64,000 nt of DNA, taken from the NCBI RefSeq assembly GCF_021083185.1, contig NZ_JAIGQB010000013.1, positions 1-64,000 of the forward strand. Reading direction: 5' to 3'. Numbering within the stretch: position 1 is the first letter of the stretch; each line of letters opens with the position of its first letter. The position numbers and the translations under genes are program-made. The stretch comes from Nocardioides furvisabuli. Lineage in GTDB: Bacteria; Actinomycetota; Actinomycetes; Propionibacteriales; Nocardioidaceae. Below the pieces are notes generated by a model. The model did not search any database. It saw nothing but the letters and a program-made list of their open reading frames with translations, and was not told where the DNA came from. Below are positions 1 to 5,462 of the stretch, in pieces.

Positions 1-132
1 ACCTCAGAAGACGTCCGTCGAGGAGCACTGTCAGGATGGCTTCATCAGTACAACCACCACCGGCCCCACTCAGCCCTCGGTGGCCAACCACCCATCACCC
101 GGTTGGACAACCTGGCTGGAGATCACAGCTAG
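1..132 (+). CDS. IS481-type transposase, C-terminal fragment (5' end outside window)
   Basis: Reading frame 1 is open from the first base to a TAG at 130-132 and encodes about 43 residues. They contain WLHQYNHHRPHSALGG followed by a proline and a leucine-rich tail. This is the usual C-terminus of IS3/IS481 DDE transposases: the YN-x-x-RPH-x-x-LGG block after the catalytic Glu. The catalytic DDE residues lie upstream, outside the window, so it is unknown whether the element is intact. The stop is only 15 bp from the stop of the convergent metallopeptidase gene. No terminal inverted repeat is obvious between them, so the right end of the element may be lost or may lie inside this short gap. Confidence 0.72.
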   Translation, partial: TSEDVRRGALSGWLHQYNHHRPHSALGGQPPITRLDNLAGDHS

Positions 133-147
133 TCGGGCGGCTGCCCC

Positions 148-501
148 TCAGCCCCAGCCGAGCTGGTGCAGCCGGGCGTCGTCGAGGCCGAAGTGGTGGG
201 CGACCTCGTGCACCACGGTGATGCGCACCTCCTCCTCCAGCTCCTCCACCGTCTCCGCCATGTCGAGCAGGGGACCGCGGAAGAGCAGGATCCGGTCCGG
301 GAGCATGCCGGAGTGGTTGGCCGGTCGCTCGGTCAGCGCGAGTCCGTCGTAGAGACCGAGCAGGTCGGGGTCGTCGTCCGGGGCCTCGGCCTCGACCAGC
401 ACGACGACGTTGTCGACCAGGCGGGCCAGCTCGTCGGGCAGTCCGTCGAGGGCTCGCTCCACCATCGCATCGAAGGCGGCCGGGGCCAGGTCGAGGGGCA
501 T
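148..501 (-). CDS. zincin-like metallopeptidase family protein
   Basis: This is a 117-residue protein of the small bacterial metallopeptidase family formerly called DUF1025. The zinc motif HEVAHHFG (HExxH followed by a third ligand region, GLDDARLHQLGW) sits close to the C-terminus, as is normal for this family. The N-terminal half is acidic (AEAPDDDPDLLGLYDG). Length and end match complete family members. I chose the ATG at 501. It is preceded by GGGAG and by a TAGGGT hexamer 7 nt away; a GTG nine bases upstream is the alternative. The family fold resembles zinc peptidases, but substrates are not established, so the function is inferred from the motif. It lies downstream of the tRNA-Asp gene and its hairpin. 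Confidence 0.85.
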   Translation of the reverse strand: MPLDLAPAAFDAMVERALDGLPDELARLVDNVVVLVEAEAPDDDPDLLGLYDGLALTERPANHSGMLPDRILLFRGPLLDMAETVEELEEEVRITVVHEVAHHFGLDDARLHQLGWG

Positions 502-508
502 GGCTCCC

Positions 509-514
509 ACCCTA
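509..514 (-). promoter_or_regulatory. -10 element TAGGGT, 7 nt from metallopeptidase start
   Basis: On the minus strand TAGGGT is followed by GGGAGCC and then ATG. The distance fits a transcription start at or next to the start codon. Confidence 0.5.
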
Positions 515-554
515 GGGAGGTGCCCAAGCGGCCGCAGGGGCCTGAAATGCCGAG

Positions 555-580
555 CAGGGTGAGCCTGGTGGCTCACCCTG
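555..580 (-). terminator. hairpin terminator after tRNA-Asp
   Basis: Perfect 11-bp stem (CAGGGTGAGCC / GGCTCACCCTG) with a TGGT loop, 13 nt after the 3' end of tRNA-Asp. There is no U-run, which is common in high-GC actinobacteria. Confidence 0.7.
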
Positions 581-592
581 ATCGGCATGCAA

Positions 593-669
593 TGGCGACC
601 CCGACGGGACTCGAACCCGCGGCCTCCGCCGTGACAGGGCGGCGCGCTAACCAACTGCGCTACGGGGCC
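593..669 (-). tRNA. tRNA-Asp (GTC)
   Basis: The cloverleaf reads on the minus strand from 669. The acceptor stem is GGCCCCG/CGGGGTC, the D-arm is GCGC-AGTTGGTTA-GCGC, and the anticodon loop CTGTCAC gives GTC (Asp). The T-loop is GTTCGAGTC, the discriminator is G, and CCA is encoded (593-595). It is the second gene of a tRNA-Glu/tRNA-Asp tandem and is followed by a hairpin terminator. Confidence 0.95.
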
Positions 670-752
670 AGGTTGTAACTGGTGAAGCGGGTGGAACTCT
701 AACCCATGCTCTTCGGAGACCACCAATCGGCGCCCGCCCCCGAACCGGGCCG

Positions 753-825
753 TACCCCCAACCGGATTCGAACCGGCGCTACCGCCGTGAAAGGGCGGGG
801 TCCTGGGCCGCTAGACGATGGGGGC
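753..825 (-). tRNA. tRNA-Glu (TTC)
   Basis: The acceptor stem GCCCCCA/TGGGGGT has discriminator A. The anticodon loop CTTTCAC gives TTC (Glu), and the T-loop is GTTCGAATC. CCA is not encoded. It lies 83 nt upstream of tRNA-Asp on the same strand and is probably cotranscribed with it. Confidence 0.95.
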
Positions 826-859
826 CAGCTCGGTCAGACACGCCCGACCGAGCGCGCCC

Positions 860-890
860 AGCATAGGGCCAGCGAGGCCCGTCCCTCCAA
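860..890 (-). promoter_or_regulatory. possible promoter of the tRNA-Glu/Asp operon
   Basis: The minus strand has TATGCT (860-865) with a TTGGAG-like -35 (885-890) at a long 19-nt spacing, about 30 nt upstream of the tRNA-Glu 5' end. The -10 is good and the -35 is weak. The rest of 826-984 shows no gene. Confidence 0.35.
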
Positions 891-984
891 CCGCAGACCC
901 CTTTTCCCGCCTCCCTCCAGGGTGGTCGTGTCGAAGTTTCGTCCCGAGTTGCTCATCTGGCAGCGAATTGACACCTGCTTTGAC

Positions 985-990
985 TACTCT
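985..990 (+). promoter_or_regulatory. -10 element TACTCT for leaderless response regulator mRNA
   Basis: TACTCT is followed by 7 nt (TGCCCTC) and the GTG start at 998. No Shine-Dalgarno sequence is present. A TTGACA at 968-973 is too close to be its -35. Confidence 0.45.
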
Positions 991-997
991 TGCCCTC

Positions 998-1390
998 GTG
1001 AGCAGGAAGGCTCGGCAGTTGCGCTTCCTCGTCGTCGATGACAACGAGGACATTCGTGACGTCTTCTGCCGTCTCGTGGAGAGGGCCGGCCACCAGGCCG
1101 CCACCTCCGTGGACGGCATGGACGCCGTGGAGACGCTGCAGCGCGAAGCCTTCGACGTGATGCTCCTCGACCTGACGATGCCGCGCATGAGCGGTGTCGA
1201 CGTCGTGCGCTGGCTACGGGAGCACCCCGAGGTCGCGCCGGACGTGCGGATCGTCGTGATCAGCGCATGGGCGGGTGAGCACCGAGCTGTTCTCCAGGAA
1301 CTCGGCATCGAGACGGTCATGCAGAAGCCGCTGCGCATCCAACAGCTGACCGACCTGATCGCCGAGACACTGCATGCCCTGGAGTCCTGA
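998..1390 (+). CDS. single-domain response regulator (receiver only)
   Basis: This 130-residue CheY-like receiver has no output domain. It shows the acidic pair D14-D15, the phosphoacceptor D58 in LLDLTMPRMSG, S89 (IVVISA) and K110-P111, which are all the conserved active-site residues. It should accept phosphate from a histidine kinase and act through protein interaction. The histidine kinase four genes downstream (2711-4033) is the obvious partner, though the pairing is inferred from proximity. The GTG at 998 is chosen because the receiver fold starts ten residues later and a TANNNT hexamer lies 7 nt upstream. The next 100 nt before the small peptide gene carry a short GC hairpin. Confidence 0.9.
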   Translation: MSRKARQLRFLVVDDNEDIRDVFCRLVERAGHQAATSVDGMDAVETLQREAFDVMLLDLTMPRMSGVDVVRWLREHPEVAPDVRIVVISAWAGEHRAVLQELGIETVMQKPLRIQQLTDLIAETLHALES

Positions 1391-1438
1391 GCCCGTCCCT
1401 GAAATGCACCACCGGGCCCTGGACTCCCAGCAGTGTCA

Positions 1439-1462
1439 CCCCGCACCACCTTCGGCGCGGGG
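1439..1462 (+). terminator. weak GC hairpin between response regulator and small peptide gene
   Basis: A 6-bp stem CCCCGC/GCGGGG with a 12-nt loop. It may attenuate read-through from the response regulator into the downstream genes. There is no U-run, and the call is uncertain. Confidence 0.3.
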
Positions 1463-1490
1463 CCCCACCCCACCACCCCTGGAGATCACC

Positions 1491-1586
1491 ATGATGAACC
1501 GCATCCGCACCGCCATCGAGACCAAGCGCGCCGCCGACCAGCTGCAGGCCTACTACATGTGGCGTCCGGGCCCCGGCCGCCGCTGA
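1491..1586 (+). CDS. 31-residue peptide with aromatic-rich C-terminus (possible modified-peptide precursor)
   Basis: This short gene has a good ribosome site (GGAG, 6 nt before ATG) and lies 24 nt upstream of the P450. The product starts with a basic helical segment (MMNRIRTAIETKRAADQLQ) and ends with AYYMWRPGPGRR, which packs two Tyr, a Met and a Trp next to a Pro/Gly/Arg tail. Known cytochrome P450-modified ribosomal peptides (biarylitides, cittilins, atropopeptides) are made from short peptides with Tyr/Trp-rich cores encoded directly before the P450. This arrangement is similar, but no family match is claimed. It could equally be an uncharacterised small protein or a leader peptide. ATG 1494 is an alternative start. 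Confidence 0.55.
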   Translation: MMNRIRTAIETKRAADQLQAYYMWRPGPGRR

Positions 1587-1610
1587 CCTGCGAGTGACCC
1601 ACGCGCAGTG

Positions 1611-2714
1611 ATGCACGTGGACAGCGCCGAGTCGGCCGGTAGCCGGCTCGGCGCTGTCCTCTCCGCCCCGCGCACGGGCGTCGTACGCCTGTCCCCGGCC
1701 GGGCCGTGGCTCGTCACGACCCACGCCGACGCCCGGCGGGTCCTCACCGAGCCGCACCTGTTCGACTTCCCCGGCGACGTCACCCGCAGCGGGGACCTGT
1801 CCGGGAGCACCGGCGAGAGCCGGTCGGGCCACACCGTCTTCGCCCCGCTGGCCCCCGACCAGGTCGCCCGCGGGGTCCTGACCTTCGAGCGCGAGCTCGC
1901 GACGGCACTCGACACGCACGACCGCACCCGCCCCGCGGAGCCGTACGACGCGATGGTGCTGCTGCGCCAACCGGTCGCGCGCTCGACCACCGCCGCGGTG
2001 CTCGGCCAGCTCGACGAGGCTCGGCGCGACCGCGTCGCCGCCCTCGTGCTGGACTGGATAGACGCGCTCGCGCCCGTCATCTCGGCGCGGCGACCGCCCG
2101 GGCGCTGGCGCCGCACCCGCCGCACGGAGAAGGCGGCCCGCTACGCCCTCGAGGACGAGCTCGCGCCGCTCATCGGCCCCGAGGACACCCCGGCACAGGT
2201 GGCGACGCTCCTCGCTGCGGGCATCCAGGTCCCGATCGCCGCCGGCGCGTGGTTGCTGGCGTGGCTCGGCCAGCACGAGACCGGGGACCTCGATCCGACG
2301 TACGCCGTGTGGGAGACGTTGCGACTCACTCCCCCGACCTGGATCACTGCGCGCCTCACCACCGAGGAGGTGGAGCTCACCGGCGCCCGGGTGCCCGCCG
2401 GCCGCGTGGTGCTCGTCAGCCCGCTGCTGCTCGGACGTTCGGACGACCTGGTCCCGGGTGACGACCACGACCGCGGCACCTTCGACCCGGACCGGTGGCA
2501 GGACGGGCTCCAACGGCCCGGAGCCTGGCTGCCCTTCGGCGCAGGACCGCACGCATGCCCGGGCCGTACGCTGGGTACCGCCCAACTGGTCCACCTCGCC
2601 CGGTGGGGAGTGGACCGGACCATCGCCTTGAGTGAGAACGTGTCGATCGACCAGAGTCGGGGCATCCTGCCCTCACCGTGCCGCTTCACCGCTTCGCGAA
2701 GGGAGATCCCGTGA
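1611..2714 (+). CDS. cytochrome P450-like protein, shortened, with atypical I-helix
   Basis: The protein has 367 residues, which is short for a bacterial P450 (usually 400-450). The core signatures are clear. The K-helix ExxR is E235-R238 in VWETLRLTPP, FDPDRW is at 291-296, and the heme loop FGAGPHACPG (309-318) has Cys316 as thiolate ligand. The region where the I-helix should be (about 198-215, LLAAGIQVPIAAGAW) lacks the usual acid-Thr pair used for oxygen activation. The enzyme may therefore be a non-standard P450, a peroxygenase or cross-linking type, or not a mono-oxygenase. The stop overlaps the GTG start of the histidine kinase (GTGA), so the two are translationally coupled. Start ATG 1611; GTG 1608 is also possible. 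Confidence 0.85.
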   Translation: MHVDSAESAGSRLGAVLSAPRTGVVRLSPAGPWLVTTHADARRVLTEPHLFDFPGDVTRSGDLSGSTGESRSGHTVFAPLAPDQVARGVLTFERELATALDTHDRTRPAEPYDAMVLLRQPVARSTTAAVLGQLDEARRDRVAALVLDWIDALAPVISARRPPGRWRRTRRTEKAARYALEDELAPLIGPEDTPAQVATLLAAGIQVPIAAGAWLLAWLGQHETGDLDPTYAVWETLRLTPPTWITARLTTEEVELTGARVPAGRVVLVSPLLLGRSDDLVPGDDHDRGTFDPDRWQDGLQRPGAWLPFGAGPHACPGRTLGTAQLVHLARWGVDRTIALSENVSIDQSRGILPSPCRFTASRREIP

Positions 2715-4033
2715 CCCAGCCGTCCGCGCTGCAGGACGTGTCCTCCCGCGGGCCGGTCTCCGCGGACGCCGCTCGTCTCGCCGGGGTCATCCTCGAGGCC
2801 GAGATCAGCGCCGACGAGGCCATCGTCCGCACCGCCGCGCACCTGCTGTCCTGCGACCGGGTCGACCTGGTGATCGCCTCTCTCACCACCTTCGCCCCCG
2901 AGGACCCGACCGGGTGGCTGCGCCTCGGTGGCCGGGCGTGGGTGCGGGACTGGTCGCGCCCCGGTTTCGGATCCCTCCTGCCGGCCCCGGATGCCGGCCC
3001 CGAGGCGGCGCTCACCATGCCGTGGCTCTCGACCCACGCCCGCGCGGAGGGCCTTGCCGTTCTCACCGACGTCGAGCTCCTGCCGGACGAGGCAGCCCAG
3101 GACCGCGTCGAGCTGAAGAGGACGGACGTGCGGAGCCTGGTCTCGACGACCCTGCTCTCGCGCGGGGAGATGTTCGGCAGCGTGTCGGCGGTCAGCGCCG
3201 ACGTCGGACCATGGCCGGAGATCTTCGTCGAGGACGTGCGCCTGCTGAACTCGGCGATCACCTCCCGCATCATGCTGGAGCACTCGCGGCGGGCCCTGGC
3301 CGAGGCGATCGACGCCGGCGCCGAGGCACAGCTGGCCTACCAGCAGTTCTTCGGCGCGGTCGGTCACGAGCTGCGTACGCCGCTCAGCTCGGTCCTCGGC
3401 TACACCGAGGTGCTCCTCGACGACGCCGGCCAGTCGCCACAGGACCCGGTGTCAGCGGCCCTGCTGCGCGACGGTCCGGCGATGGTGCGCGCCTGCGAGC
3501 AGGTGCTGACGGTGGTCGACCACCTGCTCGGCACCGGTCGCGCGCTGTCGAGCGACGACCACAAGCAGGACGTCGTCCTCGCCGAGGCCGTGGCCGACGT
3601 CGTGCACTGGCACCGCAACCCGGCCCGGGCGGCCGGGGTCGAGGTGCACGTCGACATCGACCCCGCCGTCACCGTCTGGGCGCACCCGTCCGGCGTACGC
3701 CAGGTGCTGGCCAACCTCCTCGGCAACGCCATCAAGCACCACCGCAACGGCGCGGGAGAGGTGCACCTGACGACCCAGCGCCTGCGCGGCGAGAGCCGTC
3801 TGGAGATGGTGCGCATCGTGGTGCGCGACGACGGGCCCGGGCTCGCTGCCGACCAGCTGCTGCACGCCTTCGAGCCGTTCGTGCGGTTCGCGCCCCGCGG
3901 CACCAAGGGCAGCGGCCTCGGGCTGTCGATGTCGCGCACCATCGCCGAGCGCGACGGCGGCGCGGTCCGCGGCGAGTCCACGCCCGGCATCGGCTCGTCC
4001 TTCTGGCTCGAGCTGCCCGTGCGCGGCTCCTGA
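2711..4033 (+). CDS. soluble sensor histidine kinase
   Basis: This 440-residue kinase has no predicted membrane segment. Residues 1-200 resemble a GAF-type sensor region. The dimerisation/phosphoacceptor helix follows, with H219 in HELRTPLSSVLGY. The HATPase domain comes last, with its N-box around N339 (LLGNAIKHH), the G1 box DDGPGLA (about 373-379) and the G2 box GSGLGLSMS (about 399-407). The GTG start overlaps the P450 stop by four bases and has GGGAG upstream. The gene order response regulator, peptide, P450, kinase suggests the kinase signals through the receiver at 998. Its sensor input may be linked to the P450 or its product, but that is inference. Confidence 0.9.
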   Translation: MTQPSALQDVSSRGPVSADAARLAGVILEAEISADEAIVRTAAHLLSCDRVDLVIASLTTFAPEDPTGWLRLGGRAWVRDWSRPGFGSLLPAPDAGPEAALTMPWLSTHARAEGLAVLTDVELLPDEAAQDRVELKRTDVRSLVSTTLLSRGEMFGSVSAVSADVGPWPEIFVEDVRLLNSAITSRIMLEHSRRALAEAIDAGAEAQLAYQQFFGAVGHELRTPLSSVLGYTEVLLDDAGQSPQDPVSAALLRDGPAMVRACEQVLTVVDHLLGTGRALSSDDHKQDVVLAEAVADVVHWHRNPARAAGVEVHVDIDPAVTVWAHPSGVRQVLANLLGNAIKHHRNGAGEVHLTTQRLRGESRLEMVRIVVRDDGPGLAADQLLHAFEPFVRFAPRGTKGSGLGLSMSRTIAERDGGAVRGESTPGIGSSFWLELPVRGS

Positions 4034-4068
4034 GGCGAGCCGATTCCGTCCGTGCCGCGCGACTCATG

Positions 4069-4074
4069 TATTCT
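4069..4074 (+). promoter_or_regulatory. -10 element TATTCT upstream of tRNA-Phe
   Basis: TATTCT ends 10 nt before the tRNA 5' end, so the precursor would have a very short 5' leader. No clear -35 is seen. Confidence 0.45.
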
Positions 4075-4084
4075 CGTCCTGCTT

Positions 4085-4158
4085 GGGCAGGTAGCTCAGT
4101 TGGTACGAGCGATCGCCTGAAAAGTGATAGGTCGGCGGTTCGACCCCGCCCCTGCCCA
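4085..4158 (+). tRNA. tRNA-Phe (GAA)
   Basis: The acceptor stem is GGGCAGG/CCTGCCC, with discriminator A. The anticodon stem is ATCGC/GTGAT (one G-U pair) around the loop CTGAAAA, giving GAA (Phe). The T-arm is GGCGG-TTCGACC-CCGCC. CCA is not encoded. Confidence 0.93.
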
Positions 4159-4169
4159 CAAGCACAGAA

Positions 4170-4198
4170 GGGCCCCGATCACGTCCCGATCGGGGCCC
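4170..4198 (+). terminator. hairpin terminator after tRNA-Phe
   Basis: Perfect 11-bp stem GGGCCCCGATC/GATCGGGGCCC with a 7-nt loop, 11 nt after the tRNA. It separates the tRNA from the glycosyltransferase promoter. Confidence 0.75.
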
Positions 4199-4220
4199 TC
4201 CTGCGTGGTGCCGCCGGCCC

Positions 4221-4226
4221 TAGGAT
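4221..4226 (+). promoter_or_regulatory. -10 element TAGGAT for leaderless glycosyltransferase mRNA
   Basis: TAGGAT, then 6 nt (CGGGCC), then ATG at 4233. No Shine-Dalgarno sequence lies between. Confidence 0.5.
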
Positions 4227-4232
4227 CGGGCC

Positions 4233-5462
4233 ATGCGCATCGTGCTCGCCAACTCGGCCTTCCACCGCGTCGGGGGCAGTGAGACCTACCTGGCCACGCT
4301 CGCGGAGAACCTGCTGCGGCTGGGGCACGACGTCCGCATCTACACCCGGGTCGCAGGCGACATGGCGATGCTCGCCCGCCGTCACGGCATCGAGGTGATC
4401 GACTCGGTCGACGACCTCGGGGTCGCTGCTGACGCAGTGCTCTCCCAGGACGGCATCGTGGCCTACGACCTCGCCGGCGCCTGGCCGCAGGTCCCGCAGG
4501 CGTTCGTGTGCCACAGCTCGCTGTTCGACGTCCAGCAGCCACCGCTGGTCCCCGGCACGGCATCGGCCGTGATCGTCCTCAACGACCGCGTCCGACGGCG
4601 CGTCGAGGCGCTCAACGTCGACCTGGAGGTCGTGCGGCTGAAGCAGCCGATCGACACGCAGCGGTTCTCCCCCCGCTCCTCCCCCGCGGCCAGGCCGACG
4701 CGGGCGTTGGTCCTGAGCACCTATCTCGACGGTGCCCAACGCCACGTCCTGGACGAGTCGTGCGCGGCGGCGGGCGTCGAGCTGGTCTCGATCGGCATCG
4801 ACCACGTCGACCTGGCTCCCGAGGCCCTGATGGCCGACGTGGACTTCGTCGTCGGCAAGGGGCGCGCGGTGCTGGAGGCGATGGCGTGCGGGCGACCTGC
4901 CTACCTCTTCGACAGCTTCGGCGGCGACGGCTGGATCACCCCCGACAACTACCCCGAGCTCGAGGCGGACGGCCTGACCGGACAGCTGGGCGAGCGCGGG
5001 ATCGACGCCGACCGACTCCGGGCGGACCTCGCCGCGTACGACCCGGACTGGGGGCGCCTGGGCCGCGAGCTCGTCCTGCGTCACCACGACGCACGCCAGC
5101 ACGCCCACGCCGTCCTCGACGTGCTGGCCGGACTCGGGGCCGGCCACGGGCGGCCCGTCACCCTCGAGTCCGAGCTCGCCCGGCAGGTCCAGCTGCGGTG
5201 GAGTGCCGAGGCGGAGCTCTTCGGCCTCCGTGCCGAGACACGGCGCGCGTCCGCGCGGGCCGTGACCAGCGTCGAGGAGGTGGAGCTTGCCCGCCAGGAG
5301 ACCGCGCACGCCCGACACGCGCTGGCCCAGGTCACCGCCGAGCTGGACCGGCTACGCGAGCGGCTGGCGGACTACGAGCAGCGCAACCGTCGACTGCGCC
5401 GACGGCTGCGACGCCTCGGCGACGACCCGCAGGCCGAGACACCCGGCCGGGCCGATGACTGA
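4233..5462 (+). CDS. GT-B fold glycosyltransferase with C-terminal coiled coil
   Basis: This 409-residue protein starts with a typical family 4 Rossmann opening (IVLANSAFHRVGGSETYLATLAENL) and continues in the GT-B pattern. A glycine-rich, acid-containing donor-site region (GKGRAVLEAMACGRPAYLF) lies around residues 208-226. From about 310 onward it is highly charged and heptad-like (ELARQETAHARHALAQVTAEL), ending in an Arg-rich tail. This predicts a coiled coil for oligomerisation or membrane/partner binding. The stop overlaps the start of the acyltransferase by 8 nt, so the two are coupled. Donor and acceptor sugars cannot be read from sequence; a cell-surface polysaccharide or glycolipid is likely from context. 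Confidence 0.8.
   Translation: MRIVLANSAFHRVGGSETYLATLAENLLRLGHDVRIYTRVAGDMAMLARRHGIEVIDSVDDLGVAADAVLSQDGIVAYDLAGAWPQVPQAFVCHSSLFDVQQPPLVPGTASAVIVLNDRVRRRVEALNVDLEVVRLKQPIDTQRFSPRSSPAARPTRALVLSTYLDGAQRHVLDESCAAAGVELVSIGIDHVDLAPEALMADVDFVVGKGRAVLEAMACGRPAYLFDSFGGDGWITPDNYPELEADGLTGQLGERGIDADRLRADLAAYDPDWGRLGRELVLRHHDARQHAHAVLDVLAGLGAGHGRPVTLESELARQVQLRWSAEAELFGLRAETRRASARAVTSVEEVELARQETAHARHALAQVTAELDRLRERLADYEQRNRRLRRRLRRLGDDPQAETPGRADD

Follow-up and report, generated by a model that had tools for sequence, protein, structure and literature searches.

What do a receiver protein, a peptide of 31 residues, a cytochrome P450 and a histidine kinase accomplish when they are encoded side by side between two transfer RNA (tRNA) genes? 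The question is raised by a locus of Nocardioides furvisabuli lying in the first 64,000 nucleotides (nt) of contig NZ_JAIGQB010000013.1 (assembly GCF_021083185.1), a stretch hereafter called the window, whose start is the end of its contig (window = contig positions 1-64000). Our analysis indicates that the four genes probably form one module, in which the P450 would modify a ribosomally synthesized and post-translationally modified peptide (RiPP), probably by cross-linking a Tyr at position i to a Trp at position i+2, and which would have its own two-component pair. An earlier sequence-only reading of this DNA had described a receiver gene, a 31-residue peptide gene with a ribosome site, a P450 gene beginning 24 nt later and a kinase gene whose GTG overlaps the P450 stop, and all of these are present as described:

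998 to 1390, plus strand: receiver-only response regulator, GTG start, 130 amino acids (aa) (Pfam Response_reg, E 8.9e-22)
1439 to 1462, plus strand: stem-loop in the receiver-peptide gap, with a 7-bp stem covarying in 26 relatives
1481 to 1484, plus strand: GGAG ribosome-binding site of the peptide gene; TGGAG is invariant in 26 aligned relatives
1491 to 1586, plus strand: putative precursor peptide gene, 31 aa; Tyr22 and Trp24 (Y-x-W) are invariant, followed by Arg25 and a Pro-rich tail
1611 to 2714, plus strand: cytochrome P450, 367 aa, ATG start 24 nt past the peptide stop (Pfam p450, E 8.9e-16, residues 232-326)
2711 to 4033, plus strand: histidine kinase, GTG start, 4-nt overlap with the P450 stop (Pfam HisKA 3.1e-8, HATPase_c 3.6e-23)

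A P450 of this family was found in 58 of 215 Nocardioides genomes, the window's own included, and the other 57 proteins were 47-92% identical to it in a protein search. The peptides accompanying these enzymes were sought by an unfiltered listing of the open reading frames (ORFs) in the 300 nt upstream of each P450, followed by a motif-based pick, and an ORF of 24-31 residues was present in all 58 loci, encoding 55 different peptides. When the peptides are anchored on the Y-x-W motif, Tyr and Trp are each found in 58/58, the following residue is Arg in 56 and Val in two, and nothing else except the start Met is fixed; the motif doubled as a search filter, and the unfiltered ORF list yields identical ORFs. 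The middle residue of the motif is of nine kinds (M12, A12, S10, L7, G7, T5, V3, F1, P1), and the residue preceding the Tyr is also variable (I10, Y9, P9, V9, M8, L5, A4, F3, W1). A second Tyr precedes the motif in only nine of the 58 loci, and the YY seen in the window is therefore not characteristic of the family. Conservation of the YYMW tail, which the sequence-only reading had proposed as a test, therefore held for Y-x-W-(R/V) and failed for the first Tyr and the middle residue. A short upstream ORF with the pattern [YF]xW[RV] occurs in 58/58 loci, compared with 7 of 2,900 dinucleotide shuffles of these upstream stretches and 2 of 2,844 windows taken elsewhere in the loci, which rules out a chance ORF as the origin of the peptide. 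The ORF has two candidate start codons (first or second ATG), and the peptide has no match in Pfam.

The same motif bears on what the P450 might do to the peptide. The enzyme could act on it without forming a cross-link, for example by hydroxylating or nitrating the Tyr, with the Trp serving for recognition only. A RiPP P450 that nitrates Tyr, RufO, is described in excerpts of the literature, and sequence alone cannot separate the candidate reactions. However, the invariance of both Tyr and Trp in 58/58 peptides around a varying middle residue is the pattern expected of two joined side chains, and we consider modification without a cross-link unlikely.

Variation along the peptide is uneven. 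In 21 different gap-free relatives, the ratio of non-synonymous to synonymous changes (pN/pS) was 1.30 in the leader, 0.49 in YxW and 0.45 in the tail, which shows a drifting leader and a constrained tail; the Arg and Pro codons of the tail vary synonymously and their residues are unchanged. Retention of a short gene with a drifting leader at homologous P450 loci had been put forward as a check in the sequence-only reading, and it was found throughout the 58 loci. A Met-Pro pair preceding the motif Tyr occurs in nine of the 58; the P450 tree accounts for it with three changes, whereas shuffles need 8.5 on average. In Nocardioides currus, the precursor gene is present in three tandem copies with YSW in every copy; the contig starts at this precursor locus, and the receiver lies near the start of another contig (G020:C12:431-799). 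Two fixed aromatic residues flanking a free one, a leader that drifts, precursors repeated in tandem in one species and a P450 downstream are together the expected look of a P450-modified RiPP. These data also bear on the idea of a peptide that stays unmodified and works as a small regulatory protein, docking on the kinase or on the P450, with the P450 making or destroying a small molecule that the kinase senses. Co-occurrence of peptide, P450 and kinase fits that idea, and a small protein regulator is plausible in a unit that includes a kinase, but the drift of the leader, the restriction of fixed residues to Tyr and Trp besides the start Met, and the three tandem copies in one species, which suit precursors better, make it improbable in our judgment.

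The gap between the receiver and peptide genes contains an RNA element of its own. In 26 close relatives, 95.1% of the cells of the 7-bp stem pair, compared with at most 61.5% for slid versions; double changes were seen in six of the seven pairs, a number reached by 2 of 500 shuffles, and the covariation score was reached by none of 500. The stem-loop may act in translation or messenger RNA stability of the precursor. A known RNA family was rejected as its identity, with none found in the gap by Rfam at the gathering score. In six loci (L020, L034, L067, L069, L071, L075) this gap measures 147-152 nt versus about 80-101 nt in close relatives, and its first block (CCCTGAA..CACC..CGGG) is apparently doubled. 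The covarying stem-loop just upstream of the ORF, together with an ORF stop within 60 nt of the assigned P450 start in 48/58 loci, could be taken to mean that the ORF is a leader controlling translation or transcription of the P450 and that the peptide itself is functionless. Nevertheless, the hairpin precedes the ORF rather than following it, the Arg and Pro codons of the tail change while the residues stay, and the tandem copies retain the core residues, all of which renders such an explanation very improbable.

Regarding the enzyme, the haem-ligand Cys316 and the ExxR motif (Glu235, Arg238) are invariant (25 and 28 aligned sequences), and the P450 should therefore bind haem. Its I-helix carries AGxQVP, with A, G and Q invariant, instead of the acid-alcohol pair that is the usual motif of this helix in P450s. 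The AlphaFold2 model has a mean predicted local distance difference test score (pLDDT) of 78.5 and, in a VIA-align comparison, matched 5l91 with Z 27.4 and 3.4 Å over 330 residues (15% identity), an alignment that takes in almost the full chain and with which many other matches tied. As modelled, the protein is thus a complete P450 fold that is far from solved P450s. The solved P450s among the matches listed in sequence and fold searches were generic, and no RiPP P450 stood out among those of the fold search, which excludes nothing. Its best NCBIfam match is ApyO (NF050147), a RiPP P450, at 69.7 bits versus a cut-off of 525 and over residues 232-347 only.

The two signalling proteins retain the residues expected for phosphotransfer. 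The phospho-acceptor His219 of the kinase (HELRTP) is invariant in 24 aligned sequences, and the phospho-acceptor Asp58 of the receiver as well as Lys110 are invariant in 23; the Pfam search gave the receiver no output domain. By sequence, the two proteins qualify as a two-component system, and their linkage suggests that they are partners. The N-terminus of the kinase has a GAF-like domain whose match is below the Pfam cut-off, and the kinase model (pLDDT 84.0, predicted template modelling score 0.52) displays a mixed helix-strand domain followed by long helices and the kinase core. Matches to the kinase core dominated its fold search, which gave no firm indication of what the GAF-like domain binds. 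The strongest 19-residue hydropathy over the 58 kinases had a median of 1.35 and a maximum of 1.92, values that give no hint of a membrane location for most of them, and a 4-nt overlap between the P450 stop and the kinase gene is seen in 39/58 loci. In one genome (G089, L185) the kinase is followed in tandem by another member of its family, and further relatives of the kinase are found elsewhere in G118 (L183) and G125 (L184). Additionally, several genomes carry extra receivers of the same family elsewhere, 47-73% identical to the window's (L191-L198, L187-L189), with no family P450 and no close kinase homologue within the fetched stretches; additional receivers are also present in several of the P450 genomes.

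The four genes also occur together. A kinase homologue is located downstream in 58/58 P450 loci, one of them in pieces, and a receiver homologue upstream in 57/58, the last locus being cut by a contig end. Profile searches matched the kinase in 59 of the 215 genomes, namely the 58 P450 genomes and G200, where a contig end truncates the kinase, and the receiver in 62, namely the 58 plus G004, G017, G035 and G168. These genome searches scored only the best first-pass candidates per genome (9, 8 and 20 for P450, kinase and receiver, respectively) at fixed E-value limits. In the family, the P450 profile matched 58 of 341 genomes, all Nocardioides, and every match was likewise Nocardioides in samples of the order (34/293 genomes, 37 genera) and of the class (9/394 genomes, 137 genera). 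A scan of named genomes, covering the best 80 of 102 relatives, returned 38 close P450 loci (L104-L141), of which 37 were titled Nocardioides and one, a metagenome-assembled genome, Actinomycetota, before the next P450 relative dropped to E 9e-9 (E being relative to the candidates); the P450 of Nocardioides lacusdianchii is 92% identical to that of the window, and these 38 loci overlap the 215-genome set and are no independent evidence. A plasmid origin was ruled out, with none of 141 matching plasmid records covering 80% of the P450 at one place.

The position of the unit is marked by tRNA genes, which were called by ARAGORN in the window as follows:

593 to 669, minus strand: tRNA-Asp (gtc), left flank
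752 to 825, minus strand: tRNA-Glu (ttc), left border of the unit
4085 to 4159, plus strand: tRNA-Phe (gaa), right border of the unit

The unit comprises four plus-strand genes between tRNA-Glu on the minus strand and tRNA-Phe on the plus strand; the latter tRNA is absent from the Rfam matches at the gathering score. Among the 38 named loci, tRNA-Phe follows the kinase in 30, tRNA-Glu precedes the receiver in 29 (the 30th is cut by the contig), and tRNA-Asp is found upstream in 28. The remaining eight are diverged and located elsewhere, and five of these have a tRNA-Arg in the fetched stretch. Sites lacking the cluster were sought through tRNA-Phe in ten genomes, nine of them without the P450, and eight of the nine were fetched. 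The distance from tRNA-Glu to tRNA-Phe was 85-206 nt in seven of the eight, where the cluster is absent, and 2.9 kb in the eighth; the left flank of the window aligns past the tRNAs in five of the eight, and on the right side little aligns beyond tRNA-Phe. With the receiver, the P450 and the kinase as tblastn queries (E up to 1), no match was obtained between the tRNAs of the eight sites, and the one P450 stretch detected in L203 (29 bits, E 0.006) falls outside the tRNA gap. Their joint presence and these empty tRNA sites suggest that gain or loss affects the four genes as a set.

A larger biosynthetic cluster was ruled out by the flanking genes, which vary by lineage in rough ORF calls of the 38 named loci, and by tRNA genes flanking it left and right in 29 of them. 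The contig opens within the tail of a transposase-like frame with the look of an insertion sequence family (window 1-132, plus strand; WLHQYNHHRPHSALGGQPPITRLDNL), about 0.9 kb before the receiver. A promoter scan of window positions 500-4400 found no sigma-70-like site.

The genes, their linkage, their joint presence or absence and the invariance of Y-x-W are observations, and the sequence-only proposal of a P450-modified ribosomal peptide with its own two-component pair is supported by a four-gene unit kept across the genus. From these sequences we infer the following scheme for leader role, cross-linking, processing, product and direction of signalling. The 31-residue peptide would be a RiPP precursor, and its basic N-terminal half would be the drifting leader recognised by the P450. 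The enzyme would then oxidise the Tyr and Trp of Y-x-W and couple their side chains into a three-residue macrocycle, after which the Pro/Arg-rich tail may be kept or trimmed by a housekeeping peptidase, assigned to the latter since the unit encodes none. The kinase with its GAF-like domain would probably reside in the cytoplasm and be translated along with the P450; it would form a private two-component pair with the output-less receiver, and this pair may either sense the modified peptide (or a state needed for making it) or set production through a partner protein. As a more tentative suggestion, which we hold to be possible rather than likely, the cross-linked Tyr-x-Trp product would be no exported antibiotic but a private intracellular messenger, read by the soluble GAF-type kinase and relayed to the output-less receiver.

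Several points weigh against a modified peptide with a dedicated signalling pair. The P450 is distant from solved P450s (14-21% identity among the Foldseek matches listed), any kinship to known RiPP P450s is putative, and the product is predicted from the genes. The whole-peptide pN/pS of 0.79 indicates weak codon-level selection (shifted frames gave 0.95 and 1.67) and is by itself no proof of coding. Besides, the four-gene unit encodes no exporter, peptidase or immunity gene, and the hydropathy maximum of 1.92 leaves a membrane segment possible in some kinases. Four genomes that lack the P450 still have a receiver relative, which lies at a contig end in G004 and stands alone in G017, G035 and G168, the last three with no family kinase or P450 within the 6.4 kb fetched. 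Finally, the kinase is in pieces in a low-quality genome, G191 (Nocardioides sp. B-3). At this locus (L043/L131) the kinase gene is fragmented and the P450 contains an odd stretch; as the genome is rated 61% complete, sequencing error is possible for both.

The chemistry proposed here has precedents in excerpts of the papers cited below. Biarylitide systems (BytA/BytO, P450Blt) resemble the window in having a tiny precursor beside a P450, ring residues two apart and tolerance of Trp in second place, with substrates of the form MxYxW and the motifs MKYLW and MKYIW (PMC13417212). The first ring residue is Tyr and the spacing i/i+2, which Y-x-W matches in 58/58 loci as a sequence motif only, but the biarylitide precursor has five residues and the precursors described here 24-31. 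The text of that paper has no occurrence of histidine kinase, response regulator, two-component or Nocardioides (PMC13417212). ApyO, the best NCBIfam match of the window's P450, also offers, in variants, a precedent for Tyr-Trp coupling two positions apart: YxY, WxY and YLW motifs occur among its precursors, the native link is C-C, the WLY variant gives a Trp N-C link, and a cross-link in the YLW variant is suggested by tandem mass spectrometry (PMC13192836). However, the aminopyruvatide pathway uses three different metalloenzymes (PMC10635010), while the window holds only four genes between its tRNA borders and its P450 scores far under the NF050147 cut-off. Tyr-Trp side-chain links made by P450s are also reported for lapparbin, rubrin, micitide and atropopeptides (PMC13250620, PMC13383641, PMC12352619), those of lapparbin and micitide in PMC13250620, and the text of an atropopeptide paper has no occurrence of histidine kinase, two-component, response regulator or Nocardioides (PMC11450843). 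These four are likened to the window's system by description.

RiPP genes with a dedicated two-component system are known from lantibiotic-type clusters (NisRK), with a membrane-bound kinase, NisK, and a DNA-binding regulator, NisR. The window's unit shares with them RiPP-like genes with their own kinase and regulator, but differs in a kinase without a clear membrane segment and a receiver without an output domain. Coupling of Tyr and Trp two residues apart is known chemistry of other RiPP P450s, and it is the dedicated two-component pair that sets this unit apart. The sequence-only reading knew of no such four-part arrangement, and neither a paper on this system nor a second case emerged from the literature we searched, in which subscription journals were thinly covered.

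If our interpretation is true, the locus would add a new member to the P450-made cyclic peptides, produced by a P450 family seen here in Nocardioides only. The nine kinds of middle residue would represent a natural library inside the predicted ring, which may be useful in enzyme work. Moreover, since kinase and receiver are tied to the precursor-P450 pair, deletion and complementation of single genes would give access to what the peptide does in Nocardioides.

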